Part shown: one piece after another, positions 726 through 29,320 of the stretch
How the letters are laid out: the number at the start of each line of letters is the position of its first letter
How positions within the stretch are numbered: the stretch's first letter is position 1
Origin: Defluviicoccus sp.
GTDB lineage: Bacteria > Pseudomonadota > Alphaproteobacteria > Rhodospirillales > Defluviicoccaceae
Length of the DNA stretch: 64,000 bases
Direction: 5' to 3'
Assembly: GCA_029624735.1 (NCBI GenBank)
Contig: JARSSM010000022.1
Location: forward strand, 62,001 to 126,000
Position numbers and translations under genes: made by a program
Notes under the pieces: generated by a model
Database searches by the model: none
Told to the model about the DNA's origin: nothing
Seen by the model: only the letters and a program-made list of their open reading frames with translations

Positions 726-801
726 GCGCTCGACCACAGACAGGGATGGCTGGGCCGGCGGGCGGAAATCTGCCGGCCGGCGGACAACGGCGGGCCAAAA
801 C

Positions 802-4488: not shown

Positions 4489-4991
4489 CCACCCCGCCGC
4501 CCGCGCTTGACGCCACCGACCGCCGGCTGATCAAGGCGACGCAAGAAGGGCTGCCCTTGACCCGACGGCCCTATCACACCGTCGGTGCGGCCATCGGCCT
4601 TGCGGGCGAGGAGGTGATGGCGCGATTTTGCCAGATGCTGGAAACAGGGGTCATCCGGCGGATTGGTGTCGTGGCGAACCATTACCGCCTGGGCTATGTC
4701 GCCAACGGCATGTCGGTGTGGGACATTGCTGATGACGCCGTTGCCAGCGCTGGCACAGAGGTTGGCGCGCTCGACTTCGTCAGCCACTGCTACCAGCGGC
4801 CGCGCCATCTGCCGCTCTGGCCCTACAACCTGTTCGCCATGGTGCACGGCCGCAGTCGCGACGAGGTCGGCCTCAAGGTCGCCGAGATCGCGCGTCAATT
4901 GGGGCCGCGGGTTTGCCAGTACGACGTCCTCTACTCGTCGCGCATCCTGAAAAAAACCGGCCTGCGCCTTGTCGACCAGGGAGCGCCCTGA
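4485..4991 (+). CDS. nirH: Siroheme decarboxylase subunit NirH
   Basis: 168 aa, the second long-type subunit. It resembles nirL: an N-terminal DATDRRLIKATQEG, then VANGMSVWDIADD and CYQRPRHLPLWPYNLFAMVHGRS. Start and stop overlap the neighbours (ATGA with nirG, TGATG with nirJ). Four separate subunits are present here, in contrast to species where D-L and G-H are fused. Confidence 0.86.
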   Translation: MTTPPPALDATDRRLIKATQEGLPLTRRPYHTVGAAIGLAGEEVMARFCQMLETGVIRRIGVVANHYRLGYVANGMSVWDIADDAVASAGTEVGALDFVSHCYQRPRHLPLWPYNLFAMVHGRSRDEVGLKVAEIARQLGPRVCQYDVLYSSRILKKTGLRLVDQGAP

Positions 4992-6172
4992 TGTTCCGTA
5001 TCAGCGCGTTCATGGCCGAGATCCTGCACCCAACGCCACTGAAGCCGGGCCGACGGCCGAGCGGACCGGTCATCATCTGGAACCTGATCCGCCGCTGCAA
5101 CCTCAAGTGCAAGCATTGCTACTCTTTTTCGGCGGATACCGACTTCGCGGGCGAACTGTCGACGGAGGACGTGTTTGCGGTAATGGCGGATCTGCGGGCG
5201 TTCGGCGTCCCGGTGTTGATCCTCTCCGGCGGCGAGCCGCTGTTGCGCCACGACCTGTTCGCGATCACGACGCGCGCCAAGTCACTCGGCTTCTTCGTTG
5301 CGCTGTCGAGCAACGGCACGCTGATCGACCCGGCGAATATCGAAGCGATCGCCGCCGCCGGCTATGACTACGTCGGCATCAGCCTCGATGGCATCGGCGC
5401 CGTTCACGACGCGTTTCGCCGCAAGGAGGGAGCCTTTGCCGCCAGCCTCAATGCCGTCCGCCTGTGCCGGACCAACGGCATCAAGGTGGGCCTACGGTTC
5501 ACGATGACGTTCGACAACGCCCATCATTTGCCGGACCTGCTTGCGCTCGCTGATGCCGAAGGCGTCGACAAGTTCTATCTCTCGCACCTCAACTATGCTG
5601 GCCGCGGCGATCGCAACCGCGGCGCCGACGCCACCTTCGCCGTCACCCGCCGGGCGATGGAGCATCTGTTCGAGGCCGCCCGGCGCAGCGCCGAGAAGGG
5701 CGAGTCCAAGGAATACGTCACCGGCAACAACGACGCCGACGGCGTGTTCCTGCTCCAGTGGGCACGGCGCCGCTTTCCGGACGTGGCCGATCACCTGCGC
5801 GCCAAGCTGGTGCAATGGGGCGGCAACGCATCGGGCGTCAATGTCGCCAACATCGACAATCGCGGCGATGTCCATCCCGATACGTTCTGGGGCCACCATA
5901 CGCTCGGCAACGTCCGCGATCGGCCGTTCTCGGCGATCTGGCAGGATACTTCCGATCCGATCATGGCGGGGCTGAAGCGGGTGCCGCGGCGGATCAAGGG
6001 CCGCTGCGGCACCTGCGCCCACTTCGACATCTGCGGCGGCAACACGCGGATCCGGGCGCTGCGCCTGACGGGGGACCCATGGGAAGCCGATCCGGGCTGT
6101 TACCTCACCGATGCCGAGATTGCAGCCGGGATGCCTCCGGATCAAGAAACCGATGATCCGGCATTCGTTTAG
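4991..6172 (+). CDS. nirJ: Radical SAM heme d1 biosynthesis enzyme NirJ
   Basis: 393 aa. The radical-SAM cluster motif is CNLKCKHC (C36, C40, C43), followed by LSGGEPLLR and SSNGTLI. A C-terminal cysteine group (CGTCAHFDICGG, later PGCY) is typical of the SPASM-like auxiliary cluster region. NirJ acts after siroheme decarboxylation, removing propionate side chains so that the keto groups of heme d1 can be installed, in the cytoplasm. The ATG at 4991 is the TGATG overlap with nirH. The 3' end overlaps nirN by 20 bp. Confidence 0.92.
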   Translation: MFRISAFMAEILHPTPLKPGRRPSGPVIIWNLIRRCNLKCKHCYSFSADTDFAGELSTEDVFAVMADLRAFGVPVLILSGGEPLLRHDLFAITTRAKSLGFFVALSSNGTLIDPANIEAIAAAGYDYVGISLDGIGAVHDAFRRKEGAFAASLNAVRLCRTNGIKVGLRFTMTFDNAHHLPDLLALADAEGVDKFYLSHLNYAGRGDRNRGADATFAVTRRAMEHLFEAARRSAEKGESKEYVTGNNDADGVFLLQWARRRFPDVADHLRAKLVQWGGNASGVNVANIDNRGDVHPDTFWGHHTLGNVRDRPFSAIWQDTSDPIMAGLKRVPRRIKGRCGTCAHFDICGGNTRIRALRLTGDPWEADPGCYLTDAEIAAGMPPDQETDDPAFV

Positions 6173-7724
6173 TTTCCTCGTCATGGCGGCCGTGGCACTG
6201 CCCTCCGCCGCCGGGGCCGCGGACGTTGCGCCCGCTGCGGCCGTGACCCTGTACCAGCAGCACTGCGCGTCGTGTCACGGTGCCGATCGCCTGGGCGGCA
6301 CCGGACCGGCCTTGCTGCCCGAAAGTCTGCAGCGCCTGCGGCGCGATGCCGCGGCCACGACGATCACCTTGGGCCGGTCGGCGACGCAGATGCCAGGCTT
6401 CGGAGACCTCCTCTCGCCCGCGGAGACGACCGCTCTCGTCGAACTGATCTACCAGCCGTTGGCCGAGCCGCCGAGTTGGTCGCTCGAACAGATGCTGGCG
6501 AGCCGGATCATCCATACCCCCACGGCGGAGCTTCCCGCCAGGCCGGCGCATGACGCCGATCCCTTAAACCTGTTCACCGTCGTCGAAGCGGGAGATCAGC
6601 ACGTCACCATCCTCGATGGCGACCGCTTCACGCCCCTGTGGCGCTTCCCCTCTCACTATGCCTTGCACGGCGGCGCGAAATATTCTCCGGACGGTCGCTT
6701 CGTCTATCTCGGCTCGCGCGATGGCTGGGTCAGCAAGTACGATCTCTACTCCCTGCAACCGGTGGCCGAAATCCGCGCCGGCATCAATCTGCGCAACATC
6801 GCCGTCTCGGCCGATGGCGGAAGCGTCGCCGTCGGCAACTACCTGCCCCCTTCCCTGGTGATCCTTGATGCCCACGATCTGGCGCCGCTAAAGGTCGTCG
6901 CGGCCGCCGACCGGCAGGGGAAGCCGTCGCGCATCAGCGCCGTCTACACCGCTCCGCCGCGGCAGAGCTTTATCGTCGCGCTCAAGGATGCCGCGGAGAT
7001 GTGGGAAGTCTCCTACCGGGCGAAGCCGGATCCGGTTGCGCGCGCTCTTGTGCACACCTACGAGCCGGGGATGGAAGAAGGCGCGTTCGATTTCGGGCCG
7101 TTCCCCGTTCGCCGCATCGCGCTCGATGACGTGCTGGACGATTTCTTCTTCGATCCTGGGTACCGGAGCGCAATCGGTGCCGCTCGCAATGCCCGCAACG
7201 CCCAGGTGATCAACCTCAACGTCGGTCGCAAGGTCGCCGACGTTGCAATGCAGGGTATGCCGCATCTCGCGTCGGGCATTACCTTTGAACACGAGGGCAG
7301 AACGGTGCTGGCGACGCCACTCCTGAACGAGCCGGTGATTGCGGTCTTCGATATCGAGACGTGGGCGCCGGTGGGAAGGATCGCGACCGGTGGACCGGGC
7401 TTCTTCCTGCGCAGCCACGAGAACACGCCCTATGCGTGGTCGGATACCTCCCTTGGCACGGCGCGTGATCAGATCCAGATCATTGACAAGCGAACGCTCG
7501 AAATCGTGCGCACGCTGCGCCCGGCGCCGGGCCGATTGACCTCGCACGTCGAGTTCAGCCGCGACGGCCGCCATGCGCTCGTCAGCGTCTCGGAAATGGA
7601 CGGCGAACTGGTCGTTTACGATGCCGAGCGGTTCGTTGAAGTGCAGCGCCTGCCGATGCGAAAACCGTCGGGGAAATACAATGTTTACAACAAGATCACG
7701 CTGTCCGCCGGCACCAGTCACTGA
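6153..7724 (+). CDS. nirN: Dihydro-heme d1 dehydrogenase NirN (cytochrome cd1-like)
   Basis: 523 aa. A signal peptide (cleavage near AAGAADV) leads into a cytochrome c domain with CASCH at C38-H42, then a d1-type propeller ending KPSGKYNVYNK. NirN oxidises dihydro-heme d1 to heme d1 in the periplasm, the last step before transfer to NirS. It differs from NirS in the tail and in its shorter heme c domain. The start overlaps nirJ by 20 bp and was chosen for the clean signal peptide. Confidence 0.9.
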   Translation: MIRHSFSFLVMAAVALPSAAGAADVAPAAAVTLYQQHCASCHGADRLGGTGPALLPESLQRLRRDAAATTITLGRSATQMPGFGDLLSPAETTALVELIYQPLAEPPSWSLEQMLASRIIHTPTAELPARPAHDADPLNLFTVVEAGDQHVTILDGDRFTPLWRFPSHYALHGGAKYSPDGRFVYLGSRDGWVSKYDLYSLQPVAEIRAGINLRNIAVSADGGSVAVGNYLPPSLVILDAHDLAPLKVVAAADRQGKPSRISAVYTAPPRQSFIVALKDAAEMWEVSYRAKPDPVARALVHTYEPGMEEGAFDFGPFPVRRIALDDVLDDFFFDPGYRSAIGAARNARNAQVINLNVGRKVADVAMQGMPHLASGITFEHEGRTVLATPLLNEPVIAVFDIETWAPVGRIATGGPGFFLRSHENTPYAWSDTSLGTARDQIQIIDKRTLEIVRTLRPAPGRLTSHVEFSRDGRHALVSVSEMDGELVVYDAERFVEVQRLPMRKPSGKYNVYNKITLSAGTSH

Positions 7725-8472
7725 CGCGCCTGACCTTGCGCCGGGCGATGCGGCCGACGCGGCCGTCATCCTGGTTGCTCACGGCTCGTCGCGGGTTGCC
7801 GAAGCAGTCCTCGGTCTCGATCGTCTGGCGTCCGCCCTGCGCGAGCGCGAGGGGTATGCCGAGGTCGCCGTGGCGACCCTGCACGGATCGGGCCACCGAC
7901 CCGCCGATGTCGTCGCCGCGCTCGCCCTCACGCGTGCGTTCGTCGTGCCGGTGATGATGTGCGATGGCCTGACGGTGCAGCGCGATCTTCCGGCTGCGTT
8001 CAGCGGCTGTGGATCCCTGCGGCTCCGCTTCTGCCAGCCGGTTGGGACGCACCCTGGACTGGCCGCACTGATCGCCGAGCGCGCCGCCCAGGAAGCGAAG
8101 CGGCGAAACCTGCATCCGGCGCAGACCCGGCTGCTCTTGATCGCGCATGGTTCGACAAAGAACACCAGATCGGAACAGGCGACGCTGCTCCAGGCCGGCC
8201 GGCTGGCCGCCATGGACCTTTTTCGCGAAGTGGCTGCCGCCTATCTCGAACAGCCGCCCAGCGTCGTCGCCGCCATTCGGCGCTTGCGGCCGCCGGTCAT
8301 CGCCGTCGGCCTGTTCGCCGCCGAGGGGCGGCATGCGACCGTCGATGTCGAGGCCGCCTTGGCCGCGGCTGGCCGGCCCGACGTTGCCTACCTTGGTGCG
8401 ATCGGCACCGATCCCGGCATGGCGCAGCTGGTCGCCGCCGTCATCCGCTCAGCGGCGCGCACGGGCCGGTAG
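7681..8472 (+). CDS. Two-domain CbiX/SirB-type sirohydrochlorin chelatase
   Basis: 263 aa with two CbiX-like halves: LVAHGSSRVAEAVLGL near residue 30 and LLIAHGSTKNTRSEQA near 155, both keeping the HGS metal-binding motif. The length matches SirB-type class II chelatases rather than the short single-domain CbiX-S. It overlaps nirN by 44 bp and is the last gene of the nir run, so it likely inserts Fe2+ into sirohydrochlorin to supply siroheme for heme d1. No precorrin-2 dehydrogenase is visible in the cluster. The metal (Fe or Co) cannot be told from sequence. The start is the only good ATG but lies inside nirN. Confidence 0.8.
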   Translation: MFTTRSRCPPAPVTDAPDLAPGDAADAAVILVAHGSSRVAEAVLGLDRLASALREREGYAEVAVATLHGSGHRPADVVAALALTRAFVVPVMMCDGLTVQRDLPAAFSGCGSLRLRFCQPVGTHPGLAALIAERAAQEAKRRNLHPAQTRLLLIAHGSTKNTRSEQATLLQAGRLAAMDLFREVAAAYLEQPPSVVAAIRRLRPPVIAVGLFAAEGRHATVDVEAALAAAGRPDVAYLGAIGTDPGMAQLVAAVIRSAARTGR

Positions 8473-11009: not shown

Positions 11010-11459
11010 TCAAATGTCGTAGAGCAACACGACCTCGGCCGATGCCGTTCGTCCCCGCAGGTCGGCAAGAGTGGTCCTGTCAAGGATCTCGGCGATCGCG
11101 TCGCGGACGTCGAGCATGAGGCTGCGGATGCGGCAGATCGATGTATCGCGGCAGTCGTCGCAGCGCCGGTACGCAGTCCGGCTCGCGCACGGAATGGGAG
11201 CCAGCGGACCGTCAAGGACGCGGATGACGTCACCGATAAAGATGCGGTTTGCCGGGCGGGCGAGCGAATAGCCGCCGCCGCGGCCTTTCTTACTGGAAAG
11301 AAAGCCGGCGTTCTTCAGATCCAAGAGAATGGCATCGAGGAACTTCTTGGGGATGTTGTTGTTCGCGGCGATCTCGGCGATCAGTGACGATCCTTGCCCT
11401 TCGTGTTCCGCCAGATGCACCAGCGCCTTGAGGCCGTACTTCCCCTTGCTCGTCAACAT
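11010..11459 (-). CDS. Rrf2-family transcriptional regulator with four C-terminal-half cysteines
   Basis: 149 aa. An N-terminal winged helix (MLTSKGKYGLKALVHLAEHEG, then NNIPKKFLDAILLDLKNAGFL and SKKGRGGGYSLAR) is typical of Rrf2/IscR/CymR proteins. The dimerisation region carries C91, C100, C103 and C109 in a C-X8-C-X2-C-X5-C array. That spacing differs from the C-X5-C-X5-C of IscR/NsrR. The array could hold an Fe-S cluster or sense cysteine or redox state. The gene lies at the edge of a large sulfur-metabolism block, so it is inferred to regulate sulfur genes. It is divergent from the esterase at 11619. Confidence 0.88.
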   Translation of the reverse strand: MLTSKGKYGLKALVHLAEHEGQGSSLIAEIAANNNIPKKFLDAILLDLKNAGFLSSKKGRGGGYSLARPANRIFIGDVIRVLDGPLAPIPCASRTAYRRCDDCRDTSICRIRSLMLDVRDAIAEILDRTTLADLRGRTASAEVVLLYDI

Positions 11460-11484
11460 TAAGCACCTTTTCGATCGGGTTTGT

Positions 11485-11514
11485 CTAATATCTTGTTGGC
11501 ATGAAAGGCGTCAA
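11485..11514 (-). promoter_or_regulatory. Predicted sigma70-type promoter of the Rrf2 gene
   Basis: On the minus strand a TTGACG (-35, 11514-11509) is followed after 18 bp by TATTAG (-10, 11490-11485), 26 bp upstream of the rrf2 ATG. An AAGGTG ribosome site lies just before the start. This is a pattern match by eye only. Confidence 0.45.
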
Positions 11515-11542
11515 GATCCTCCGCCATTCTGGCGCAATCAGC

Positions 11543-11575
11543 TTGACATAAAATCTATCTTTCTATAGAATTTAT
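11543..11575 (+). promoter_or_regulatory. Promoter with overlapping AT-rich palindrome (candidate Rrf2 operator)
   Basis: TTGACA (11543-11548) is followed by a TATAGA -10 at 11564-11569. Across the spacer and -10 lies an imperfect inverted repeat, ATAAAATCTAT / TATAGAATTTAT (11548-11575), very AT-rich against a ~65% GC background. It sits between the Rrf2 gene and the esterase, in a position to block the esterase promoter. A related TCTAT/ATAGAT arrangement lies in the spacer of the promoter at 14308-14335. Binding by the Rrf2 protein is inference. Confidence 0.5.
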
Positions 11576-11618
11576 GATGTTAATATCAGCCTGACGCGCA
11601 GAATGAGGTCGCAACCCG

Positions 11619-12671
11619 ATGGACAGCGCCGGAACAACATTGCAGACGCGACCCCAGCCAAGCCTGGCTTCTTCGTCTGAGCAGCGGTTCCTCCCGTTGC
11701 GACCCGAAGGGATCTCTTGCGATTGTCCGCACGATCTGCACGATGAATACAGATTGATCTTCGCCCGGATGGCGGCTCTCCATCTTGCTCCGGGCGATCC
11801 GACACGCATGCCGCTTGCGGAGGCACGCCAAGCGTCGCTGCGTTATCATGCCTATTGGAACGCCGCCCCCCCTGAGGTCGAGGAGATTTTCGAGCGAACG
11901 GCCCCATGGTCCGGCGGCGTGCTTCGATTGCGATTCTATCGTCATCGTGCGGGATCGACCTCACCGATCGCCATCTACTTCCACGGTGGCGGCTTTGCCC
12001 TCAACTCCGTCGATACGCACGACCGGTTGCTGCGGCTGCTGGCCATCGAGGCGAAGGTGACGATTTGCGCGCTAAGCTACTCGCTCGCTCCGGAGCGGCG
12101 CTTCCCGCACCAGCTCGGCGAAGCGGTGGCAGCCGTCCGTTGGCTGGTCGATGCCGCCTCAGATCTTGATATCGACCCCGGTGCCGTTGCGCTCGCCGGC
12201 GACTCTGCAGGAGCCAACCTTGCGCTCGCCGCTGCGCTGGCGCTGCGCGACCAAGGCGACAGCCCCGTCGTCAGGCTGCTGCTGTTTTACGGAATGTATG
12301 TTCCGGAGTTCCACTCCGAAGCCCACCACCGCTACGGCGGTGGGGCGTACGGGCTTACGACCGAGCGCATGCGGTGGTTCTGGAACGCGTATCTCGGTCA
12401 GGAGAGCCGGAAGTCTGATCCGTATGCGGCACCCCTTTGCGCCGATTTGCACGGTCTCCCGCCAGCCCTGATCATCGCCGCCGGCCGCGATTGCCTGCGC
12501 GATGACAGTCTGCGCCTCGCGGAGCGTTTGCATGCGGCTGCCGTACCAAACGTGTTATCCTTCTACCAGGACGTGCCGCACGCGTTCATGCAGCTGTCCC
12601 GGTCATTGTCAGCGGCCACGGCCGCTATCAGCGAAGCGGCCGCCGTTTTGCGGGCTCTGCGCTCATCGTAA
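11619..12671 (+). CDS. Alpha/beta hydrolase, hormone-sensitive-lipase-type esterase
   Basis: 350 aa. It has the HSL-family oxyanion motif HGGG (residues 122-125), the nucleophile elbow GDSAG (S196), a candidate acid in GRDCLRDD near 291-296, and the His in DVPHAF (H321). The family hydrolyses short-chain carboxyl esters in the cytoplasm; no signal peptide is visible. The substrate is unknown. Divergent from the Rrf2 regulator and preceded by the AT-rich palindrome at 11548, so it is a candidate member of that regulon. Confidence 0.85.
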   Translation: MDSAGTTLQTRPQPSLASSSEQRFLPLRPEGISCDCPHDLHDEYRLIFARMAALHLAPGDPTRMPLAEARQASLRYHAYWNAAPPEVEEIFERTAPWSGGVLRLRFYRHRAGSTSPIAIYFHGGGFALNSVDTHDRLLRLLAIEAKVTICALSYSLAPERRFPHQLGEAVAAVRWLVDAASDLDIDPGAVALAGDSAGANLALAAALALRDQGDSPVVRLLLFYGMYVPEFHSEAHHRYGGGAYGLTTERMRWFWNAYLGQESRKSDPYAAPLCADLHGLPPALIIAAGRDCLRDDSLRLAERLHAAAVPNVLSFYQDVPHAFMQLSRSLSAATAAISEAAAVLRALRSS

Positions 12672-12818: not shown

Positions 12819-14261
12819 CTATCGGGCGCCGGCAGCTGTTGTTGAATCCGCCGCCTCAGCTCCACCGGCGCTGGCCAGCCGCTTGCCGACGACCGCACAC
12901 AGGCAGCGCAGTTCCGGCACGGCCGTCATCTCCCAGAAGTTGCCGCGCGCGATCGGCCCGAGCGCCAACAGATTTTCGAGCCGCGTGCCATCCGCGGCGA
13001 TGACTTCGCTCTCCAGCGTCGTCTCTATTCCCAAACCCAGTGGGTCGGGTCGGATCAGGCCTCGATCGAGCAGCGCGCGGACCAGTGGATCCTTGATCAG
13101 CGCGAAGTTGGACTCAGGACCGGCGCAGTTGATCAGGATGTCGGTCTCAATGCGCGCACGGCTATCCGTGCCCCGCGGACTGTATGTCGTCAGCACCCTG
13201 CTGCCATCCCGGGCGACCGTCTTCAGCCGTCCAGCATGGAAGGTCAGCTGACCGCGCTCGCGCGCTGCGGTAATCCGCCCAGCGACGTTGGGGGCCATGC
13301 GGTGGCGGTGGATCTCCCAGTATGGGCGAGCGTGCCGGAGGAACCGTCGTCGTTCGGCCAACGGCAGTCCGCCCCACAGGTGTGGCAGATACGGCCGCAC
13401 CGCGTCGACAACACTCCGCCAGTCGTGGCCTTGGACGGTCGCGCCCCGCACCTCCGCCCGCAGCACGCGGAGAATCCCGAGCGTTGTCGCCGGCAGAATT
13501 CGCCGGTGCGCCAGGAAGTCTTCGTAAGGGCGCACCTCGGCGTGCCGTTGCGGCAACAGGCCACGGCGCGAAAGCGCGGTGATCTGACCGCTGTGGCCCT
13601 GGTCTAGAAGGCTGAGGACGACATCCACCATCGTCAGACCCGTCCCCAGGATGAGTACCGAAGCCGCTCTTGGCACCTTCGCCAAGATGTCGCCGGCCCA
13701 TGGATCGGCGATGAATTGAGGTGGCTCCGCATCCGCTGATAACTCGACACCGGGCAGTTGCGGCGGGAAATTTCCCAGGCAGAGCGCGACCCGGTTGACG
13801 GCCATCGTCTCTCCCGTTTCAAGGCGGAGCACGAAGCCATGTCCGTCACGGGTAAGGTCGATAGCTGTATCGTCTCGCATCCGGCACGTGACTCCGGGCG
13901 ATGCCCGATTGATCGCATCGTCGAGTTGTTCGGCGAGGTAGGTGCCATAGAGCCCGCGCGGCACGAAAGCGTGCCCACTTGGCGGGATCAGGCCGACGGG
14001 GGCTCGCGAATCCTCGCGTCGTGACAGCCAGTCGACGAAGTGGCGTGGTTCGTCGGGAAAGGCGCTCATGTTCATGGCCCGCACGTTCAGCAGGTGCGAG
14101 GCATTGCCGGTAGAATAGGCCAAGCCACCACCGAAACCGCCGCGCTTTTCGATAAGATCGATCGCCAGTGGCGTTCTTGCCTGGCGCAGCAGGTGCACCG
14201 CGAGCAGTGTGCCGGTGAAGCCAGCGCCGATGATGGCGATCGTGGACGCAGCAGAACGCAT
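12819..14261 (-). CDS. FAD/NAD(P)-binding protein (YdhS-like, NAD_binding_9 type)
   Basis: 480 aa. It begins MRSAASTIAIIGAGFTGTLLAV, a dinucleotide-binding Rossmann motif, then GGGLAYSTGNASHLLNVRA and a second Rossmann-like motif LILGTGLTMVDVVLSL near residue 210. This matches the FAD-dependent oxidoreductase-like family often called hydroxyacylglutathione-hydrolase-associated or YdhS-like; the substrate is unknown. The ATG at 14261 is chosen because a GAGG ribosome site lies 7 bp upstream, and because the ATG at 14312 falls inside the predicted -10 element. It may be co-regulated with the sulfur genes through the AT-rich site upstream. Confidence 0.8.
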   Translation of the reverse strand: MRSAASTIAIIGAGFTGTLLAVHLLRQARTPLAIDLIEKRGGFGGGLAYSTGNASHLLNVRAMNMSAFPDEPRHFVDWLSRREDSRAPVGLIPPSGHAFVPRGLYGTYLAEQLDDAINRASPGVTCRMRDDTAIDLTRDGHGFVLRLETGETMAVNRVALCLGNFPPQLPGVELSADAEPPQFIADPWAGDILAKVPRAASVLILGTGLTMVDVVLSLLDQGHSGQITALSRRGLLPQRHAEVRPYEDFLAHRRILPATTLGILRVLRAEVRGATVQGHDWRSVVDAVRPYLPHLWGGLPLAERRRFLRHARPYWEIHRHRMAPNVAGRITAARERGQLTFHAGRLKTVARDGSRVLTTYSPRGTDSRARIETDILINCAGPESNFALIKDPLVRALLDRGLIRPDPLGLGIETTLESEVIAADGTRLENLLALGPIARGNFWEMTAVPELRCLCAVVGKRLASAGGAEAADSTTAAGAR

Positions 14262-14307
14262 TTGGAACCTCAGGTTGATGATCTCTGTCATCGCTTCGTT
14301 CACCTGG

Positions 14308-14335
14308 AACATAACATCTATAAATCTATTGACAA
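14308..14335 (-). promoter_or_regulatory. Predicted promoter with ATAGAT repeats in the spacer
   Basis: Minus strand TTGTCA (14335-14330), a 16-bp spacer containing two ATAGAT-like units separated by 2 bp, then TATGTT (14313-14308). The transcript would begin near 14300, which supports the 14261 start of the FAD protein. The repeats resemble the half-sites at 11548-11575. Assignment to Rrf2 is inference. Confidence 0.4.
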
Positions 14336-14434
14336 TATATTTTTATCAGCTACCCTAAATTCGGTTGCTGGCGATCAGCAACCCGCGGGGATTTGACGGA
14401 AGCAGCTTGCGCCGCGTCACCAAACGCTAAAGCG

Positions 14435-16829: not shown

Positions 16830-17132
16830 ATGAACGATCCTGCGCTCCCCCTCGCGATCAATAGCGACGTCAGGATTTCCGCCGAGGAGTCGTTGCGGAA
16901 CTCTCTGGCGGCGATCCGTGCGGCGGCCGAGATTCTGCACGACTACAATGACCTGTCGCGCGACGAATGCATGGCATTCACCGAGGCAGTGCTTGTCGAG
17001 AGTGAGCGGCTGGACGGTCTTATCGGCTGCTTGTTGGACAAGCGCAGGACAATCGGCTTAATGCCTGCACACCCTGTTGCTGGGCGGGTTGGGGCCGTCT
17101 TCAGCGGGCCTTCGATTCCTCCCTGTCGATGA
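16830..17132 (+). CDS. Small protein resembling a histidine-kinase dimerisation helix pair without the His
   Basis: 100 aa. Residues ~18-70 read like a HisKA two-helix domain (SLRNSLAAIRAAAEIL, then AVLVESERLDGLIGCLLDKR), but the phospho-acceptor His of the usual SHELRTPL box is absent (EESLRNSL). No ATPase domain follows. The final ~30 residues are not family-like and their codons overlap the 3' end of metI on the opposite strand by 32 bp. It may be a stand-alone scaffold or a decayed kinase. It lies 18 bp after the CoA ligase. Confidence 0.5.
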   Translation: MNDPALPLAINSDVRISAEESLRNSLAAIRAAAEILHDYNDLSRDECMAFTEAVLVESERLDGLIGCLLDKRRTIGLMPAHPVAGRVGAVFSGPSIPPCR

Positions 17133-17784
17133 TGCGCTTGTTCAGGCGCCGTGCGAGCACGTCGCCGGCGGACTGAACGCCCTGCACCAGCAGAATGAGG
17201 ATGATGACGACAGCGGCCATCACGTCGCCTTGAAACCGCTGGTAGCCGTACCGAATACCGAGGTCACCGAGCCCGCCGCCGCCGACGAATCCTGCCATCG
17301 CTGAAAATCCGGTAAGACTCACGAGGGTAATGGTCAGGCCGGCAACGATGCCTGGGAGCGCTTCGGGGAGCAGCACTTTGCGGACGATCTGCAGCGGACT
17401 CGCTCCCATCGCCTGTACCGCTTCGATCAGACCATGGTCGACCTCGCGCAGCGATGCCTCAACGAGCCGGGCGATAAAAGGTGTCGCGGCAATCGTCAGT
17501 GGGACGATCGCCGCTGCCGTACCAATCGAAGTGCCGACAACGAGACGGGTAAACGGGATGATCGCCACCATCAGGATGATGAACGGTGTTGAGCGCACGG
17601 CGTTGACGATCGTGCCGAGGACGCGATTCAGCGCCCGCCGTTCGAGGATGTGTCCCGGCCCGGTGACGACCAGAATGACGCCAAGCGGGATGCCGAGGAC
17701 GCTGGCGACGGTGCCCGAAACCGCCACCATGTGCAGGGTTTCGAGCAACGCCTCAAGCAGCTGAAAGATCACGTGCTGCGACAT
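17101..17784 (-). CDS. metI: D-methionine ABC transporter permease
   Basis: 227 aa from the ATG at 17784 (MSQHVIFQLLEALLETLHM). There are about five transmembrane helices and the EAA-type loop (EAVQAMGASPLQIVRKVLLPEALPGI) that contacts the ATPase. It forms the channel of the MetNIQ methionine importer. The start overlaps the metN 3' end by 32 bp; a longer frame to 17844 is possible but lies deeper inside metN. Confidence 0.92.
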   Translation of the reverse strand: MSQHVIFQLLEALLETLHMVAVSGTVASVLGIPLGVILVVTGPGHILERRALNRVLGTIVNAVRSTPFIILMVAIIPFTRLVVGTSIGTAAAIVPLTIAATPFIARLVEASLREVDHGLIEAVQAMGASPLQIVRKVLLPEALPGIVAGLTITLVSLTGFSAMAGFVGGGGLGDLGIRYGYQRFQGDVMAAVVIILILLVQGVQSAGDVLARRLNKRIIDREESKAR

Positions 17785-18871
17785 AACCGAGAAACTCCCC
17801 TCGCAAGCCATACCCATTGAGACGCGAAATGATCGCTGCAGCATGAGAGGCTCCGCCGCCGACGGCGACGGTCAATATCCCAAGTGGCTTGCCCTGAATG
17901 TAATCGATGTGGCCGTGAAGGATGTTGAGTGGCGCGGCAAATTCCCGAACGAGCTCAAACAAAACTGGATTATTAGCCGCAGGCCCGCGGAATGTGATGC
18001 GCAATACGGGCTGCCCGTCCGGCTCTTGCTCTGCAGTCACTCGCTCGCGGATTGCTTCCGGAAGCTCGCGACTCGCGATATCGCGGAGGAGAGTGCAGGT
18101 GACATCTGTCTTTGCGCCTGCGAACAGGTCATAAACCGTTCCTTCCTCGACGATCTCTCCCCGGTCGAGAACAGCGACATTGTTGGCGAGCTCCTTGATC
18201 ACTTGCATCTCGTGGCTCACTATCACAATGGTAATATTTAGCCTCTTGTTAATGTCAGCGAGCAGAGCAAGTATGGACTTGGTTGTCTCCGGATCGAGCG
18301 CGGATGTCGCTTCGTCGCAAATCAGCACCGAAGGATCTGAAGCGAGTGCGCGGGCGATTCCGACCCGTTGCTTCTGACCGCCGCTCAGTTGTGCGGGGTA
18401 TTGGTCGCGCTTGTCGGCAAGTCCGACGAGGTCAAGCAAGGGCGTTACCCGCCGCCTGATCTCGTGCCGGCCGATGCCACCGATCACTTCCAGTGGCAGC
18501 GCGACGTTGTCGAACACCGTGCGTGACGACAGCAGGTTGAAGTGCTGAAAGATCATGCCGATGCGACGGCGCGATCGCCGCAAGTCGGCCGGCGGGAGGC
18601 TGGTGAGATCCTCGCCGCCGACAATCACCCAGCCGCTTGTTGGCCGTTCCAGCATGTTGATGCAGCGGACCAGCGTGCTCTTGCCGGCACCGCTGCGGCC
18701 GATAATGCCGAAGATGTCGCCCTTCTCGACGGTGAGCGACAGGTTGCGCAACACATCCACCGGCCCGTCGGCTCCGGCGAACGCCTTGGAGACGCCGATC
18801 ATCCGTATCATCGGCATTGGCGTTTTCGGATTGTTCAGATCGCCGTCGATCACTTCCAATGCGCCGTCCAT
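17753..18871 (-). CDS. metN: Methionine ABC transporter ATP-binding protein with NIL domain
   Basis: 372 aa. Walker A GRSGAGKST (near 58-66), signature LSGGQKQRVGIARAL, Walker B VLICDEATSALD, and a C-terminal NIL (ferredoxin-like) domain from ~290 that senses methionine and inhibits transport. It begins 1 bp after the crotonase stop and overlaps metI, forming the minus-strand unit crotonase-metN-metI. The periplasmic partner metQ is divergent at 19859. Confidence 0.93.
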   Translation of the reverse strand: MDGALEVIDGDLNNPKTPMPMIRMIGVSKAFAGADGPVDVLRNLSLTVEKGDIFGIIGRSGAGKSTLVRCINMLERPTSGWVIVGGEDLTSLPPADLRRSRRRIGMIFQHFNLLSSRTVFDNVALPLEVIGGIGRHEIRRRVTPLLDLVGLADKRDQYPAQLSGGQKQRVGIARALASDPSVLICDEATSALDPETTKSILALLADINKRLNITIVIVSHEMQVIKELANNVAVLDRGEIVEEGTVYDLFAGAKTDVTCTLLRDIASRELPEAIRERVTAEQEPDGQPVLRITFRGPAANNPVLFELVREFAAPLNILHGHIDYIQGKPLGILTVAVGGGASHAAAIISRLNGYGLRGEFLGYVAARDLSAA

Positions 18872-18872
18872 C

Positions 18873-19721
18873 TCAGGGTTCCGCTATGTTGTGTGGTGGG
18901 TCGAACCGCGCGTCGCGCCACCGCAAGGCGGCTGCAAGTCCCGCACTGCGGACGATGTCGAGAAACTGCGCCTTGTCGGGCGTTCCAGCGGCTTCGATCG
19001 CGACATCATCGCGCAGTGCATCGCGCAAAGCCCGCTCGATGCCCATGATTTCGTATGTCCGATTGATTGATCGCTTCGTTGCGGTGACGAGTCCGGGGTC
19101 AATGGCGGCGATTTGACCGGCGACCGTCTTCGCTGCCGACAACGCCTGGTCGGTTGGCACGACGCGGCTGACGAGGCCGATCGCCAGCGCCTCCGCCGCA
19201 TCGATGCCGTGGCGGCCGGTGAGGATGATGTCCTTCGCGCGCTTGGCGCCGACCAGCCAGGGCAAGAGCATCACGACGATGCCGGCACCGAACCGCAGTT
19301 CGGGTTCTCCGAAAACGGCGTCGTCGCCGGCGATGGTGATGTCACAGGCCAGCGCGAGTTCGCATGCCCCGGCAAGGCACGGCCCCTGCACGGCGGCGAT
19401 CGTTGGCTTGCCCAGCCGCCAGCAGCGCATCACCGTCGAGAAGGCCCTTTCCAGGATCTCCCGCCACCGCGCTTCGCCGTGCGGCCGCAACTCCGCCTGC
19501 TCCTTGAGATCGAACCCCGCCGAGAAAATGCCGCCAGCACCGGTGATGATGATCGCCCGCACCCCCGGATCTCGGTCCAAAGCATCGAGGCGTTCCCGTA
19601 GAGCCTCGAGCATTTGCCGGTTCATCGCATTGCGCTGACGCGGCCGGTTCAGCGTGATGGTGGCGATCGCGCCGTCGCGATCGAGCAGGATGCCACCGTT
19701 GTCGTCCGCGGAGGTGTGCAT
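18873..19721 (-). CDS. Enoyl-CoA hydratase/isomerase (crotonase) family protein
   Basis: 282 aa. Crotonase-fold motifs: ATITLNRPRQRNAMN, the oxyanion segment AGFDLKEQA, and VQGPCLAGACELALACDI near residue 110, followed by FGEPELRFG with a Glu at the usual catalytic position. The family hydrates or isomerises enoyl-CoA thioesters. It is the first gene of an operon with metN and metI, an unusual partner for a methionine importer. The substrate is unknown. Confidence 0.85.
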   Translation of the reverse strand: MHTSADDNGGILLDRDGAIATITLNRPRQRNAMNRQMLEALRERLDALDRDPGVRAIIITGAGGIFSAGFDLKEQAELRPHGEARWREILERAFSTVMRCWRLGKPTIAAVQGPCLAGACELALACDITIAGDDAVFGEPELRFGAGIVVMLLPWLVGAKRAKDIILTGRHGIDAAEALAIGLVSRVVPTDQALSAAKTVAGQIAAIDPGLVTATKRSINRTYEIMGIERALRDALRDDVAIEAAGTPDKAQFLDIVRSAGLAAALRWRDARFDPPHNIAEP

Positions 19722-19858
19722 TTATTGGCTAACAGTCGATCGATTTAGTTGACTGATGCTTCCCTTCTAACCTAGGCTTGAGGACGATGCAAGCGTGATC
19801 GAGGTGCCTTGGTGCCGGCGCGAACCGGCCCGCGGCCCCCTGACTGGAGGAAGTGAGA

Positions 19859-20644
19859 ATGCTGAAGGCAGTGAAGTGGGGAATGGTTGGTTTGTTGCTG
19901 CTGGCGACGGGGACACACGCTGGTGCAGCGGCGCCGCTGAAGGTCGGTGTGTCCGCCGGACCGTACGCAGAAATCCTGAGTTATGCCGCCGAAATCGCCA
20001 AGAAGGACGGCATTGAAGTTAAGGTCGTCGAGTTCTCCGACTACACCATGCCGAACGCGGCATTGGCGCAGGGCGACATCGATTTCAACAACTTCCAGCA
20101 CCTCCCGTACCTGCAAAATCAAGTCAAGCAACGCGGCTACGATATCATCGCACTCGAAAAGAGCATCATCGTGCCGCTCGGACTGTACTCGAAGAAGTTC
20201 ACCGCACTCAGCGAGATCCCGGTCGGCGCAACCGTCGCCATTCCGAATGATCCTAGTAACGAGGCACGTTCTTTGATGCTGCTGGAGAAGTCAGGCTTGC
20301 TGAAGCTCAAACCCGATGCCGGCACCTCGGCAACAATCGCCGACATCGTCGAGAATCCGAAAAAGCTCATAATCAAGCAGCTCGATGCCGCGCAGCTGCC
20401 GCGTTCGCTGGAAGATGTCGATCTTGCGGCGGCGACGCTGAACTACGCCCTCAGTTCGGGCCTTGATCCGAAGAAAGCACTCCTTCTTGAGGGTGCGGAC
20501 ACGCCATGGAATCTGTGGTTTGCGGCATCGCCGAGCCGCAAGGACGATCCTCAAATCCGTCGTTACATCGAGATTTACCGATCGCCGGCCGTCAAAGATT
20601 TCATTCTCAGCCGGTTCCAGGGAACGATCATTCCAACGTGGTAG
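19859..20644 (+). CDS. metQ: Methionine-binding protein of the MetNIQ importer
   Basis: 261 aa. A signal peptide (LLLLATGTHAGAAAP) precedes an NlpA-type binding domain (LKVGVSAGPYAEILSYAA, then FNNFQHLPYLQNQ and VAIPNDPSNEARSLMLLEKSGL). There is no lipobox cysteine, so it appears soluble in the periplasm rather than lipid-anchored. The ATG at 19859 lies 8 bp after GGAGG; a GTG at 19853 is less well placed. Divergent from crotonase-metN-metI across 137 bp, so both arms may share control. Confidence 0.92.
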   Translation: MLKAVKWGMVGLLLLATGTHAGAAAPLKVGVSAGPYAEILSYAAEIAKKDGIEVKVVEFSDYTMPNAALAQGDIDFNNFQHLPYLQNQVKQRGYDIIALEKSIIVPLGLYSKKFTALSEIPVGATVAIPNDPSNEARSLMLLEKSGLLKLKPDAGTSATIADIVENPKKLIIKQLDAAQLPRSLEDVDLAAATLNYALSSGLDPKKALLLEGADTPWNLWFAASPSRKDDPQIRRYIEIYRSPAVKDFILSRFQGTIIPTW

Positions 20645-20659: not shown

Positions 20660-20703
20660 ACTGCGACCGAACTTCCTCACCGACTGCAGTAGGGATGCGT
20701 GCA

Positions 20704-22110
20704 ATGCCCGCAGAGATCGCGGTCCACCCGTCGCCGACGAAGGCGTTTCCGGCGACGGATGTACTGGACCTTATTGGCAACACCCCGATGGTGCCGGTTA
20801 CGAGCATGGATACCGGACCGTGCCAGCTGTTCCTGAAGCTGGAAAGCCAAAATCCCGGCGGTTCGATCAAGGACCGGATCGCCTTGTCGATGATCGAGGC
20901 GGCGGAGCGGGAAGGCCGTCTCCGTCCCGGCGGCACGCTGGTCGAAGCCACGGCCGGCAACACCGGCCTCGGCCTTGCACTTGTCTCGGCGCGCAAGGGC
21001 TATCGTCTGGTCCTCGTCATTCCTGACAAGATGAGTCGGGAGAAAATCTTTCATCTGAGGGCGCTCGGGGCGGACGTCGTTATGACACGCTCCGATGTCG
21101 CAAAGGGCCACCCCGACTATTACCAGGACAAGGCGGAACAGCTTGCTCGCGAGACACCGGGGGCGGTCTACGTCAACCAGTTCGAAAACACGGCCAATCC
21201 GCACGCGCACGAAAGAGGAACAGGCCCCGAAATTCTGAAGCAGATGGGGGGCGATCTCGATGCGATCGTCTGCGGCGTCGGCTCCGGCGGCACCATCACT
21301 GGCCTCAGCCGCTTCTTCGCCGCAGCGCTGCCGCACGTGGCGTTCGTCCTTGCGGATCCAAAGGGCTCCATCCTTCGGGAGTACGTGGAGACGGGTCACT
21401 GGGGCGCGGCTGGAAGCTGGCTGGTCGAGGGCATCGGCGAGGACTTCGTGCCCCCGATCGCCGATCTCAGCGGCGTAAGCGAAGCCTACACCATCGACGA
21501 CACGGAGAGTTTCGCCACCGCCCGCGAGGTGCTGCGGCGGGAAGGGATTCTGTGCGGCTCATCGAGCGGAACGCTGATCGCCGCCGCTCTGCGCTACTGC
21601 CGGGCACAGACAACGCCAAAGCGCGTCGTCACCTTCGTCTGCGACAGCGGCAATAAGTATCTCTCCAAGATGTTCAATGATTTCTGGATGCTCGATCACG
21701 GTTTCCTCGCCCGCGAACGGCACAACGATCTGCGCGACATCATCCCCCGCCGGCACGACGACGGCGCAACGATCACCGTCAGTCCCGACGACACACTGAA
21801 GGTCGCCTACGCCCGAATGAAACTCTATGACGTCTCGCAACTCCCGGTCCTGGACGGCGGGCGGGTCGTCGGCATCCTTGACGAAACCGATCTTCTCGTC
21901 GCCGTCTACGGCGATCAGCGCCGGTTTGCCGAGCCGGTGCGGTCGGCAATGACCTCTGCGGTCCACACTTTGCCCCCATCGGCACCGGTCGGGGACTTGG
22001 TGCCGATCTTCGAGCGAGGGTGGGTCGCCGTTGTCGCTGAGGGCGACCGCCTCCTGGGAGTGATCACCCGGATCGATCTTATCAATCACCTCCGGCAGAA
22101 GGTCGACTGA
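20704..22110 (+). CDS. Cystathionine beta-synthase/cysteine synthase with tandem CBS domains
   Basis: 468 aa. A fold-type II PLP domain (residues ~20-330) has the lysine motif GGSIKDRI (K56), TAGNTGLGLA, and GVGSGGTITGL for phosphate binding. Two CBS modules follow (~340-468: ISPDDTLKVAYARMKLYDVSQLPVL and a second repeat). This matches bacterial cystathionine beta-synthases that condense serine or O-acetylserine with homocysteine. The gamma-lyase gene begins 4 bp downstream, which supports a reverse transsulfuration role. The ATG at 20704 has AGGG 9 bp upstream; the ATG at 20695 has none. Confidence 0.87.
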   Translation: MPAEIAVHPSPTKAFPATDVLDLIGNTPMVPVTSMDTGPCQLFLKLESQNPGGSIKDRIALSMIEAAEREGRLRPGGTLVEATAGNTGLGLALVSARKGYRLVLVIPDKMSREKIFHLRALGADVVMTRSDVAKGHPDYYQDKAEQLARETPGAVYVNQFENTANPHAHERGTGPEILKQMGGDLDAIVCGVGSGGTITGLSRFFAAALPHVAFVLADPKGSILREYVETGHWGAAGSWLVEGIGEDFVPPIADLSGVSEAYTIDDTESFATAREVLRREGILCGSSSGTLIAAALRYCRAQTTPKRVVTFVCDSGNKYLSKMFNDFWMLDHGFLARERHNDLRDIIPRRHDDGATITVSPDDTLKVAYARMKLYDVSQLPVLDGGRVVGILDETDLLVAVYGDQRRFAEPVRSAMTSAVHTLPPSAPVGDLVPIFERGWVAVVAEGDRLLGVITRIDLINHLRQKVD

Positions 22111-22114
22111 TCAC

Positions 22115-23296
22115 ATGCCAAAGCGTTTCGCCCGTTCTCTCGGGTTTGCAACGAGAAGTGTGCACGCGGGGCAGGCGCCCGACCCGTCAACGGGCGCGGT
22201 CATGCAGCCGATCTACGCGAACTCGACTTACGTCCAATCGTCACCGGGAGTGAACAAGGGTTTCGACTACGGCCGTAGCCAAAACCCCACCCGCTTCGCA
22301 TTCGAGCGCTGCGTTGCCGACCTTGAGGGCGGCAGCCAGGGATTTGCTTTTGCATCGGGTCTGGCGGCCGAAGCGGCCATTCTCGAGCTGCTTGACCACG
22401 GCAGCACGATTATTGCGGCCAACGATCTTTACGGCGGAACGTATCGCCTTTTCGAGGCTGTGCGCAGACGGTCGGCGAACCTGACGGTCGTTTATGTTGA
22501 TGGATCAGATCCGTCCGCCATCGAAGCCGCGATTACCCCGGCGACCCGTATGATCTGGATCGAGTCGCCCAGCAACCCGCTGTTGCGGCTTGTCGATCTG
22601 GCGGCGGTGGCGCGAATCGGCCAGCACCACAATCTGATCACCGTTGCCGATAACACGTTTGCCTCCCCGTACGTGCAGCGGCCGCTGGAAGTTGGCTTCG
22701 ACATTGTCGTTCACTCTGCCACCAAGTACTTGAACGGCCATTCCGACGTGATCGCCGGTGTCGCCATAGTTGGCGGCGACGAGGCGCTGCGCGATCAGCT
22801 CGGCTTTCTGCAGAACGCTACCGGTGCGATTCTTGGACCGTTCGACAGCTTTCTCGCGCTGCGCGGCCTCAAGACATTGCCGCTGCGGATGAGTCGCCAT
22901 TGCGACAATGCGATGACGATTGCGCAGTTCCTCGAGGGTCATGCGGCGGTACGGCGGGTTCACTATCCGGGCCTCCCCAGCCACCCGCAGCACGACTTGG
23001 CACGCTGGCAGATGCGCGGGTTCGGCGGGATCGTCACCGCCGAGTTGAACGGCGATGAGCCGGGAACCGTGCGCTTTTTGGAAAGCTGCCGGCTGTTTGC
23101 CCTCGCCGAAAGCTTAGGGGGTGTCGAAAGCCTGATTAGCCATCCGGCAACCATGACGCACGCCTCGGTACCGCGGGAGCTCCGTCTCCGGCTCGGCATT
23201 TCAGACTCTCTCGTTCGGCTGTCGGTCGGCGTCGAGGACCCGGAAGACCTGATCACCGACCTCGATCAGGCGCTCAAGGCCGCTCGACTTGGCTGA
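22115..23296 (+). CDS. Cystathionine gamma-lyase / trans-sulfuration PLP enzyme
   Basis: 393 aa. Cys/Met-metabolism PLP family: FATRSVHAGQ near the N-terminus, DYGRSQNPTR, the PLP loop ASGLAAEAAI, SPSNPLL, and the lysine in HSATKYLNGHSD (K204). Such enzymes act as cystathionine gamma-lyase or gamma-synthase. Pairing with the upstream CBS-type synthase favours the gamma-lyase role, giving cysteine from homocysteine. Sequence alone does not separate the two activities with certainty. Confidence 0.88.
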   Translation: MPKRFARSLGFATRSVHAGQAPDPSTGAVMQPIYANSTYVQSSPGVNKGFDYGRSQNPTRFAFERCVADLEGGSQGFAFASGLAAEAAILELLDHGSTIIAANDLYGGTYRLFEAVRRRSANLTVVYVDGSDPSAIEAAITPATRMIWIESPSNPLLRLVDLAAVARIGQHHNLITVADNTFASPYVQRPLEVGFDIVVHSATKYLNGHSDVIAGVAIVGGDEALRDQLGFLQNATGAILGPFDSFLALRGLKTLPLRMSRHCDNAMTIAQFLEGHAAVRRVHYPGLPSHPQHDLARWQMRGFGGIVTAELNGDEPGTVRFLESCRLFALAESLGGVESLISHPATMTHASVPRELRLRLGISDSLVRLSVGVEDPEDLITDLDQALKAARLG

Positions 23297-23849: not shown

Positions 23850-24027
23850 CGCCCTGCGCCGGCGTCACCAGCCCGTCCCGCGTCTCCGTAACGAGGCATG
23901 CGCCTCCGCTCCGTCGCGGCAGCGGACCGCACAATAATCCCATTCTGTCGTGCGAAACGGACTTGACGCCGCCTCCGCGGTCTGTAGTCTATAACTCTAG
24001 TAGATTGGTTAACAAAGGACATGGCTG

Positions 24028-24645: not shown

Positions 24646-25653
24646 ATGGACGACATCAGGACCGACACGCTACCCGGTAAGACCCAGATCTATGACGGGA
24701 TTCTCGAGACCATCGGCAACACGCCGCTGGTCCGCTTGCGAAAACTCGCCGAAGACACCGGCTGTTTGGCCGACATCTTAGGCAAGTGCGAATTCTTTAA
24801 TCCGCTAAGTTCCGTGAAGGATCGCATCGGCCTGGCCATGGTGCGCGCAGCCGAACGTGACGGGCGCATCGGCGAAGGAACAGTGCTGGTGGAGCCGACC
24901 TCTGGCAACACCGGTATTGCTCTCGCGTTCGTCGCTGCCGTGCGTGGCTATCGGCTGATCCTGACCATGCCGGAAAGCATGTCTCTGGAGCGCCGTAAGA
25001 TGCTCTTGCTGCTCGGCGCCGAGATCGTGCTGACGCCGGCCGCCAAGGGAATGCCAGGTGCCGTCGCCAAGGCCGAAGAAGTCATGCGGTCCACGCCTGG
25101 TGCGGTCATGTTGCAGCAGTTCGCCAATCCAGCGAACCCCGAGATCCATCGCCACACCACCGCCGAGGAGATCTGGTGCGACACCGGTGGGCAGGTTGAC
25201 GTGATCGTATCCGGTGTTGGCACCGGGGGGACAATCACCGGCTGCGGCGAGGTCTTGAAGCAAAGACGGCCGAGCCTTCGCATCGTCGCTGTCGAACCTG
25301 AGGACAGCGCGGTGCTCTCTGGCGGGACACCGGGCCCGCACAAGATTCAAGGGATCGGTGCCGGATTCGTCCCCGCCGTCCTGAACACCGGCATCATCGA
25401 CGAGATCATTCGCATCGGCAATGCAACGGCGGTCAAGACGGCCCGGTACGCCGCGCGGACCGAGGGGTTGCCCGTAGGGATCTCTTCCGGTGCGGCGCTG
25501 GCGGCAGCAATCGAGGTCGGCCGCCGGCCGGAGATGAAGGGCAAGTCGATCGTCGTCATCCTGCCATCGTTCGCCGAACGCTACCTGTCAACGGTGCTGT
25601 TTGAAGGAATTGGCACCGACTTAGACCCTCCAAAGAACACATCCGCTATCTAG
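24646..25653 (+). CDS. cysK: Cysteine synthase (O-acetylserine sulfhydrylase)
   Basis: 335 aa. Fold-type II PLP enzyme: [11 protein letters not shown], the PLP lysine in [11 protein letters not shown] (K58), [12 protein letters not shown], and [15 protein letters not shown]. It makes cysteine from O-acetylserine and sulfide. GGAGG lies a few bases before the ATG. It follows the cysteine dioxygenase by 12 bp and precedes the encapsulin gene; the serine acetyltransferase partner is encoded at 28439. Confidence 0.93.
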
Positions 25654-28408: not shown

Positions 28409-28438
28409 CTCAGGTCCTTGTCAGGAAACGAAACGCCA

Positions 28439-29320
28439 ATGCTGCGCTCCACCCTTGGCCATCTGGCGCTCGTCTCCGGACGTGCCCCAGGCTATCGCCC
28501 GCAAGAAGACGGGCAGAACGAAAAGCTCTGGACGCGGCTGCGCCAGGAAGCCGAAGACGCCGTCGCCCGCGAACCAAGGCTGGCACGGTTGTTCTTTGAT
28601 TCAATTCTCAACCAGTCATCGTTTGAACATGCGGTCTTTCATCGCATCGCGGCCCGGCTCCACAATGATGTCGCCCCCCTCGCGCAACTGACCGAGGTCT
28701 TTCGCAAGGCGCTCTCCGCCGATGCCGCGATCGGTGAGGCCTTGAGCGCCGACATCGCGGCGGTGGTGGAGCGGGATCCCGCCTGCGACCGCTTCATCGA
28801 ACCCTTCCTTTACTTCAAGGGATTCCACGCCATCCAGACCCATCGCGTGGCGCACTGGCTGTGGCACAACAACCATCGCGACTTCGCGCTCTACCTGCAG
28901 AGCCGATCGTCCGACGTCTTCCAGACCGACATCCACCCCGAAGCGCGTTTCGGACGCGGCATCTTCCTCGATCATGCGACCGGTCTGGTCGTCGGCGCCA
29001 CCGCCGTCATCGAGGACGAGGTGTCTCTGTTGCAGAACGTCACCTTGGGCGGCACCGGCAAGGAAAGCGGCGAGCGGCACCCGAAAATCAGGCGCGGGGC
29101 GATGATCGGTGCCGGCGCGAAAATCCTCGGCAACATCGAGGTCGGCAGCTGCGCCCGGGTCGCTGCAGGATCGGTGGTGCTTCGCCCCGTCCCAGCGAAC
29201 GCGACGGTCGCGGGCGTACCGGCGCGGGTCGTCGGCACTGCTGGCTGCTCTGAGCCCGCCCGAACGATGGACCAGATCCTGAACGATCTGTCCTACGACT
29301 CCTTCAACTACACGATTTGA
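28439..29320 (+). CDS. cysE: Serine O-acetyltransferase
   Basis: 293 aa. The N-terminal helical domain is followed by the left-handed beta-helix of hexapeptide repeats (FGRGIFLDHATGLVVGATAVIED, then GAMIGAGAKILGNIEVG). The active-site motif is DIHPEARFG...DHATG. It makes O-acetylserine, the substrate of CysK and of sulfhydrylases. The long C-terminal tail ends SYDSFNYTI; its terminal Ile is the kind used by CysE to dock CysK. ATG 28439 has AGGAA upstream. It lies 30 bp after the desulfurase, in the same operon. Confidence 0.92.
   Translation: MLRSTLGHLALVSGRAPGYRPQEDGQNEKLWTRLRQEAEDAVAREPRLARLFFDSILNQSSFEHAVFHRIAARLHNDVAPLAQLTEVFRKALSADAAIGEALSADIAAVVERDPACDRFIEPFLYFKGFHAIQTHRVAHWLWHNNHRDFALYLQSRSSDVFQTDIHPEARFGRGIFLDHATGLVVGATAVIEDEVSLLQNVTLGGTGKESGERHPKIRRGAMIGAGAKILGNIEVGSCARVAAGSVVLRPVPANATVAGVPARVVGTAGCSEPARTMDQILNDLSYDSFNYTI

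Follow-up and report, generated by a model that had tools for sequence, protein, structure and literature searches.

A patchily distributed, CymR-like family of Rrf2 proteins with four conserved cysteines, a frequent C-terminal isoleucine and a predicted operator, associated with sulfur acquisition genes

CymR of Bacillus and Staphylococcus is described as the master repressor of cysteine metabolism, acting together with CysK, and such action of CysK on a transcription factor has been described for CymR of Firmicutes (PMC4961446, PMC12895370, PMC2940859). In the accounts available to us, CysK stabilises CymR on DNA, with O-acetylserine as the signal (PMC4961446, PMC2940859), the C-terminal Ile provides about 80% of the CysE-CysK binding energy, and CymR is named among the other CysK partners with Ile motifs (PMC12895370). 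A role in sulfur metabolism has already been proposed for an Rrf2 protein outside Firmicutes (PMC8557817), a likeness to the family reported here; that protein is set apart by its description alone, the available part of which has neither a four-cysteine array nor an Ile tail. In the open-access literature searched, we recognised no paper with either feature on a Gram-negative Rrf2 protein. Given that earlier proposal, what is new here is the family as the array defines it, together with its tail and operator.

The starting point was an Rrf2 gene in a 64-kb stretch of Defluviicoccus sp. DNA (hereafter the window; Table 1). Its open reading frame begins with ATG, and the product matches the Rrf2 domain PF02082 with 130.1 bits (cut-off, 30) and the Rrf2 superfamily model TIGR00738 with 109.7 bits (curated cut-off, 73.3). 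Translation confirmed the array C91-X8-C100-X2-C103-X5-C109 noted in a preliminary description of this DNA, and these four are all the cysteines of the protein. The array had been said to differ from a C-X5-C-X5-C pattern in both IscR and NsrR, which holds for E. coli IscR, but E. coli NsrR has C-X4-C-X5-C (Cys 91, 96 and 102). The same genome has seven Rrf2 matches above the family cut-off; an array paralogue 79% identical to the window protein (G000:C22:267883) lies beside sbp-cysU-cysW-cysA, and the array and Ile tail are common to both paralogues. The AlphaFold model of the window protein (mean pLDDT 88.7, with 59 for the last block) has as its top fold match the CymR structure 2y75 (TM 0.89 by target length), and the best named equivalog is also CymR (NF047409), although at 92.3 bits of the 195 needed. 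CymR-type regulators had earlier been set aside for lacking such an array; CymR nonetheless turned out to be nearest by fold and by equivalog, and the C-terminal Ile tail of CysK-docking type, present in the window protein, is shared with an Alkalihalobacillus CymR (L205, ending ...YYMFYI), as are, by published accounts of CymR, sulfur-metabolism targets. This CymR has no cysteine at all, whereas the array family has four invariant cysteines with an insert.

A genome scan with six search peptides retrieved 61 relatives from many phyla, and in an alignment of 34 of them only 15 columns were invariant, the four cysteines among them. Together with the presence of all four cysteines in each of 91 deduplicated family rows, this indicates that the array is not a chance pattern. 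The spacing C-X8-C-X2-C-X5-C occurred in 75 of these rows and near variants in 16, comprising a last gap of X4 in 11, C-X8-C-X1-C-X5-C in three from Verrucomicrobiota, and two others found once each. Complete cysteine conservation is partly a product of selection, as one of the six peptides covers C100-C103 and the search profile contains the array columns, so that independent support for the array comes from a gap in scores: when the 34-member profile was run on 289 genomes of the window's class, 29 had matches of at least 159 bits and the rest, among the matches listed and with up to 14 candidates scored in each genome, reached at most 98 bits. The family was found in 10 of 60 related genomes and, in a phylum sample, in 42 of 398, every one of these 42 from the window's class (the classes of the match-free genomes being only partly known). 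Distant array-less relatives (L066, L068 and L069) and fragments were set aside, as was L067, which ends before the array. A 105-row tree placed the main array clade apart from CymR, IscR and NsrR, with support 95/85 and an unsettled bootstrap; because some outgroup rows are very long-branched, only this split was used. The three Verrucomicrobiota variants fell outside the main clade, and several long-branched rows were unsurely placed. The score gap, the tree split and the 91 complete rows bear out the suggestion that the array defines an Rrf2 subgroup, which is, as judged from sequence, a CymR-like family spanning several phyla and patchy in distribution. One of the relatives set aside, an Alkalihalobacillus Rrf2 protein (L066, 6001-6438) encoded beside sbp-cysUWA, has only C-X8-C-X5-C and no Ile tail, and may represent a three-cysteine sister group.

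The second feature of the family lies at the extreme C-terminus. Of the 97 array proteins for which a stop was seen, 55 have Ile as the last residue; how far it lies from the array varies, and it occurs in forms such as ...MYYI and ...GDGI besides that of the window protein. Among the deduplicated rows 49 of 91 end in Ile; of these, 42 carry Y, F or W at -3, compared to 1 of the 42 other tails. Only one of 23 non-array Rrf2 controls ends in Ile, although 21 of the 23 belong to a single IscR-like type with E or Q at the end and so are not independent. This lone control (L007; locus L244 8857-10375, G000:C1), from the window's own genome, ends in ...AIDFVI, and its gene precedes a cysK-like gene by 80 bases, which makes it a candidate second CysK-docking regulator. 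The same C-terminal pattern is seen in serine acetyltransferases, both that of the window and E. coli CysE, whose GDGI end is identical to that of three related family members; in the array family it sits, in contrast, on a protein predicted to be of the DNA-binding type.

Array regulators with an Ile-type tail occur in Alphaproteobacteria, Acidobacteriota, Planctomycetota, Omnitrophota and some Bacteroidota. The tail is nonetheless far from universal, being absent from 42 of the 97 proteins, including 13 of the 19 rows from Bacteroidota and many alphaproteobacterial members linked to sbp, and present in only 8 of a further 25 loci from the phylum sample. With 42 of 97 and 17 of 25 members lacking Ile, CysK docking cannot be the common mechanism of the family. 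On the tree the Ile state changes at least 14 times and Ile is present in each of the two deep parts of the family, a pattern suggestive of an old trait that has often been lost; given these losses, the tail accounts for only some members, the two copies in this genome among them. For these members, the tail and the likeness to CymR point by analogy to gating by CysK, and the sulfur signal may enter through CysK rather than, or alongside, the cysteine array.

As to what the array could hold, the window protein was aligned to E. coli IscR and NsrR, the two proteins covered by the ligand-column comparison. Three of its cysteines, C91, C103 and C109, fall in ligand columns (IscR 92, 98 and 104; NsrR 91, 96 and 102), as in Fe-S Rrf2 proteins, whereas C100 sits within an insert absent from both. 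IscR H107, which we take to be its fourth cluster ligand, corresponds to R in 78 of 91 family rows (R112 in the window protein) and to H in six. NsrR ligands are described as three Cys plus Asp8, and the D8 column holds K in 67 of 91 rows (K7 in the window protein) and E in three. The family thus shares three ligand positions and, as modelled, an overall fold with Fe-S regulators (the fold also with RirA and RsrR), but has a fourth cysteine, in the insert, and neither known fourth ligand, and the window protein scores below the curated cut-offs for IscR (74.1 of 207.55 bits), NsrR (NF008240, 61.8 of 182) and RirA (NF008886, 57.7 of 193). An all-cysteine cluster is the natural guess for the array, with Zn or a thiol switch as alternatives.

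The matching ligand columns would also fit a purely Fe-S sensor resembling IscR or RirA, in which a four-cysteine cluster reports iron, redox or cluster supply, sulfur targets serve to feed clusters and the Ile tail is incidental or accessory; retention of the cysteines in rows that have lost the tail agrees with this. We nevertheless hold it unlikely in view of the replaced fourth ligands, the IscR and RirA scores far below cut-off and an Ile tail with an aromatic residue at -3 that is far from random. Moreover, iscS/iscU matches were near two non-array loci (L068 and L069) and one control (L182), and the iscS match in the window is the desulfurase of an encapsulin. Alternatively, reactive sulfur or oxidants could be sensed directly by the four cysteines, acting as a thiol, persulfide or Zn-thiolate switch, as might be expected from four invariant cysteines with a C-X2-C pair in a family adjoining sulfur genes, and an oxidation-sensing thiol has been described, in the available account, for S. 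aureus CymR. Two cysteines are, however, usually enough for such a switch, and strict retention of all four across several phyla would be better explained by a metal or cluster site, so that we give direct thiol sensing a low probability as well.

Gene neighbourhoods were probed with E. coli and window proteins, counting listed genes within 6 kb at loci flanked by 3 kb or more on each side; 21 loci with shorter flanks and three duplicates were dropped and the window copy was left out. A listed gene was present at 46 of 87 family loci but at only 1 of 20 control regions elsewhere on the same contigs, and counting classic sulfur genes alone leaves 43 of 87, the difference being three loci with just a FAD/NAD(P)-binding gene. 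By sample, the counts were 17 of 42 (named), 20 of 31 (class), 8 of 13 (phylum; 14 of at least 51 matches were taken, one being dropped for a short flank) and 1 of 1 (own). Sulfate transport genes were found at 29 loci, sulfate reduction genes at 10, cysteine/methionine enzymes at 10, the FAD/NAD(P)-binding gene at six and organosulfur genes at three, the main neighbours of the array being sbp-cysUWA for sulfate transport or cysHDN for reduction. IscR, NsrR and RirA differ from the family in this setting beside sulfur-uptake genes. For ten loci without listed sulfur genes, one neighbour each was compared to Pfam, which identified a sulfate/citrate-type transporter (L046) and a family 3 solute-binding protein (L018), five matches without evident sulfur link, and three neighbours with no match. 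Across the 289 class genomes, sbp was present in 25 of 29 with the array and in 18 of 260 without; the sampled genomes are related, so Fisher values overstate this evidence, and neither relatedness nor genome size was corrected for. Array homologues were therefore not found to lie consistently away from sulfur genes, though 41 of the 87 loci have no listed gene within 6 kb. The several lines of evidence give good support to the conclusion that the array family regulates sulfur acquisition.

Table 1. Genes, operator matches and other features around the Rrf2 gene, in window coordinates
Feature	Position	Strand	Remarks
Rrf2 regulator, 149 aa	11010..11459	-	array at residues 91-109; tail ...LLYDI
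Weaker operator match, 14.5 bits	11463..11486	.	between promoter-like site 11514-11487 (-) and Rrf2 start
Inverted repeat, 10 of 11 arm pairs	11548..11575	.	overlaps operator match 11554-11577, 18.8 bits, P 0.006
Alpha/beta hydrolase (Abhydrolase_3), esterase-like	11619..12671	+	divergent from Rrf2 gene; predicted target
FAD-NAD(P)-binding protein (PF13454)	12819..14312	-	predicted target
Best operator match of the window, 19.1 bits, P 0.002	14317..14340	.	upstream of FAD/NAD(P)-binding gene
Methionine importer metI (-), metN (-), enoyl-CoA hydratase-like gene (-), metQ (+)	17101..20644		possible targets
Weak operator match, 11.0 bits, P 0.016	19728..19751	.	between metQ and divergent echA-metN-metI
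PALP+CBS-domain protein (cystathionine beta-synthase-like) and Cys/Met PLP enzyme (cystathionine gamma-lyase-like)	20698..23296	+	
Weak operator match, not significant, 8.9 bits, P 0.07	23989..24012	.	16 bases before cysteine dioxygenase-cysK-encapsulin genes
CysK-like protein	24646..25653	+	PTSGNTGI loop (also in E. coli CysK) and QFxN motif; proposed docking partner
Serine acetyltransferase	28418..29320	+	C-terminus ...FNYTI, like the regulator's ...LLYDI

From 76 alphaproteobacterial upstream regions, expectation maximisation derived a palindrome of width 24 (log-likelihood 234, compared to 38 for shuffled regions), and retraining on the 64 regions from outside the window's genus gave ctAtaaa.tctATaga.tttaTag. 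An operator of two 11-bp arms 6 bp apart was dropped in favour of this AT-centred 24-bp palindrome, two frames of which overlap the inverted repeat at 11548-11575. The retrained operator has its two best matches in the 64 kb within 14305-14340 and 11540-11580, the two sites proposed in the preliminary description, both above the maxima of a Markov null (mean 12.2 and highest 16.5 bits in 30 runs); their P values in Table 1 refer to shuffles of their own AT-rich regions. A further match, at 23418-23441 after the cystathionine gamma-lyase-like gene, had a P of 0.024. Among the training regions 36 of 64 reached 11 bits, compared to 3.9 on average for shuffles, a figure that reflects fit to the training set. 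For untrained upstream regions of the window's own genus, 9 of 12 were at P<0.05, as were 5 of 9 sbp promoters unlinked to the array gene, which were outside the training set though other promoters of their genomes were in it, compared to 1 of 11 sbp promoters from array-less genomes. Of sbp promoters in linked loci only 2 of 10 reached this level, perhaps because the site there lies before the Rrf2 gene. Searches of the window's own genome with the consensus (up to three mismatches) gave matches no more numerous than a reversed control, and a sequence-only profile search of it (R1, 27 sites) recovered nothing at E<=10, the two window sites included. Being short and variable, the motif does not support a genome-wide call, and we limit the regulon claim to the named promoters.

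Both strong sites coincide with promoter-like sequences. The repeat at 11548-11575 lies on TTGACA-17-TAGAAT (11543-11571, +; 11 of 12 consensus matches), facing the hydrolase gene, and the match at 14317-14340 lies on a 9-of-12 site (14335-14308, -), a position that would put the true start of the FAD protein at a later ATG. Such overlap of operator and promoter suggests repression, and the match at 11463-11486 makes Rrf2 autoregulation possible. The association with sulfur genes that had been proposed thus holds for the family, by neighbourhood and by sbp co-occurrence, but the direct neighbours of the window sites are the hydrolase and FAD/NAD(P)-binding genes, with metNIQ, the cystathionine beta-synthase- and gamma-lyase-like genes and cysK about 5.6-14 kb away. 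(The enoyl-CoA hydratase-like gene, echA, was named by reading its sequence, with no family search.) Because the strong sites face no classic sulfur gene and the paralogue adjoins sbp-cysUWA, the window protein could regulate just the hydrolase and FAD enzyme genes, as an ordinary local regulator, the sulfur role in this genome falling to the paralogue alone. We regard this as improbable, because the tail and array are common to both paralogues, the window itself carries metNIQ, CBS, CGL, CysK and CysE, and the FAD enzyme gene recurs by array regulators elsewhere: a homologue is within about 2 kb on the same strand at L160, L250, L252, L255 and L257, at L252 and L255 together with taurine/sulfonate uptake and CBS/CGL-like genes, and about 5 kb away at L022.

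Other parts of the window were also read. Between 24028 and 30666, one run of genes encodes a cysteine dioxygenase, CysK, the shell of a family 2A encapsulin (NF041162, 527 bits) with its cargo, a cysteine desulfurase (NF041166), and also CysE and a MetY-like enzyme; this run is by its predicted products a sulfur nanocompartment operon. Family 2A encapsulin was above cut-off in 3 of the 289 class genomes, two of them with the array (this genome, G000, and G323), numbers that are small, and the best operator site in the vicinity of the encapsulin gene of G323 (L259) scored 9.4 bits. A creatininase-like frame at 14968-15420 matches positions 10-59 of a 238-position profile and looks truncated. 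At 649-8472, genes for a tetrapyrrole methylase, a radical SAM protein, cytochrome c plus a heme d1-type propeller protein, and CbiX look like heme d1 or corrin genes.

The family with its array and tail, the gene neighbourhoods, the co-occurrence and the operator statistics were established here; from them we infer DNA binding, repression, CysK docking and a cofactor. With moderate confidence, we favour a CymR-like protein that represses sulfur acquisition and docks CysK, by which O-acetylserine would report the need for sulfur; the four cysteines would supply another input, metal or thiol. A dimer would bind the palindrome, roughly CTATAAAnTCTATAGAnTTTATAG, over target promoters. The targets here would be the hydrolase and FAD/NAD(P)-binding genes; the regulator's own gene is a probable target, metQ and more distant sulfur genes are possible ones, and the sbp-cysUWA operon beside the paralogue would be bound in trans. 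With sulfur plentiful, CysK would stabilise repression; when sulfide or cysteine is short, O-acetylserine would accumulate, displace the tail and lift repression. The four cysteines would constitute a separate site, most likely for an Fe-S cluster with cysteine ligands only (or Zn), through which iron, redox state or reactive sulfur would also be read.

More tentatively, and with doubt outweighing confidence, the family might act in several phyla as a two-input sulfur switch, combining O-acetylserine sensed via tail-docked CysK with iron, redox or cluster status sensed via the all-cysteine site, and so coupling sulfate and organosulfur uptake, and here perhaps a sulfur store of family 2A encapsulin and cysteine desulfurase, to Fe-S demand. 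If the tails seen in the several phyla do dock CysK, CysK-gated transcription would be a common logic of sulfur control, extended by a four-cysteine site absent from the IscR, NsrR and CymR sequences compared here. The family yields a candidate sulfur regulator and a defined predicted operator for many bacteria, with the last Ile as the single residue at issue.
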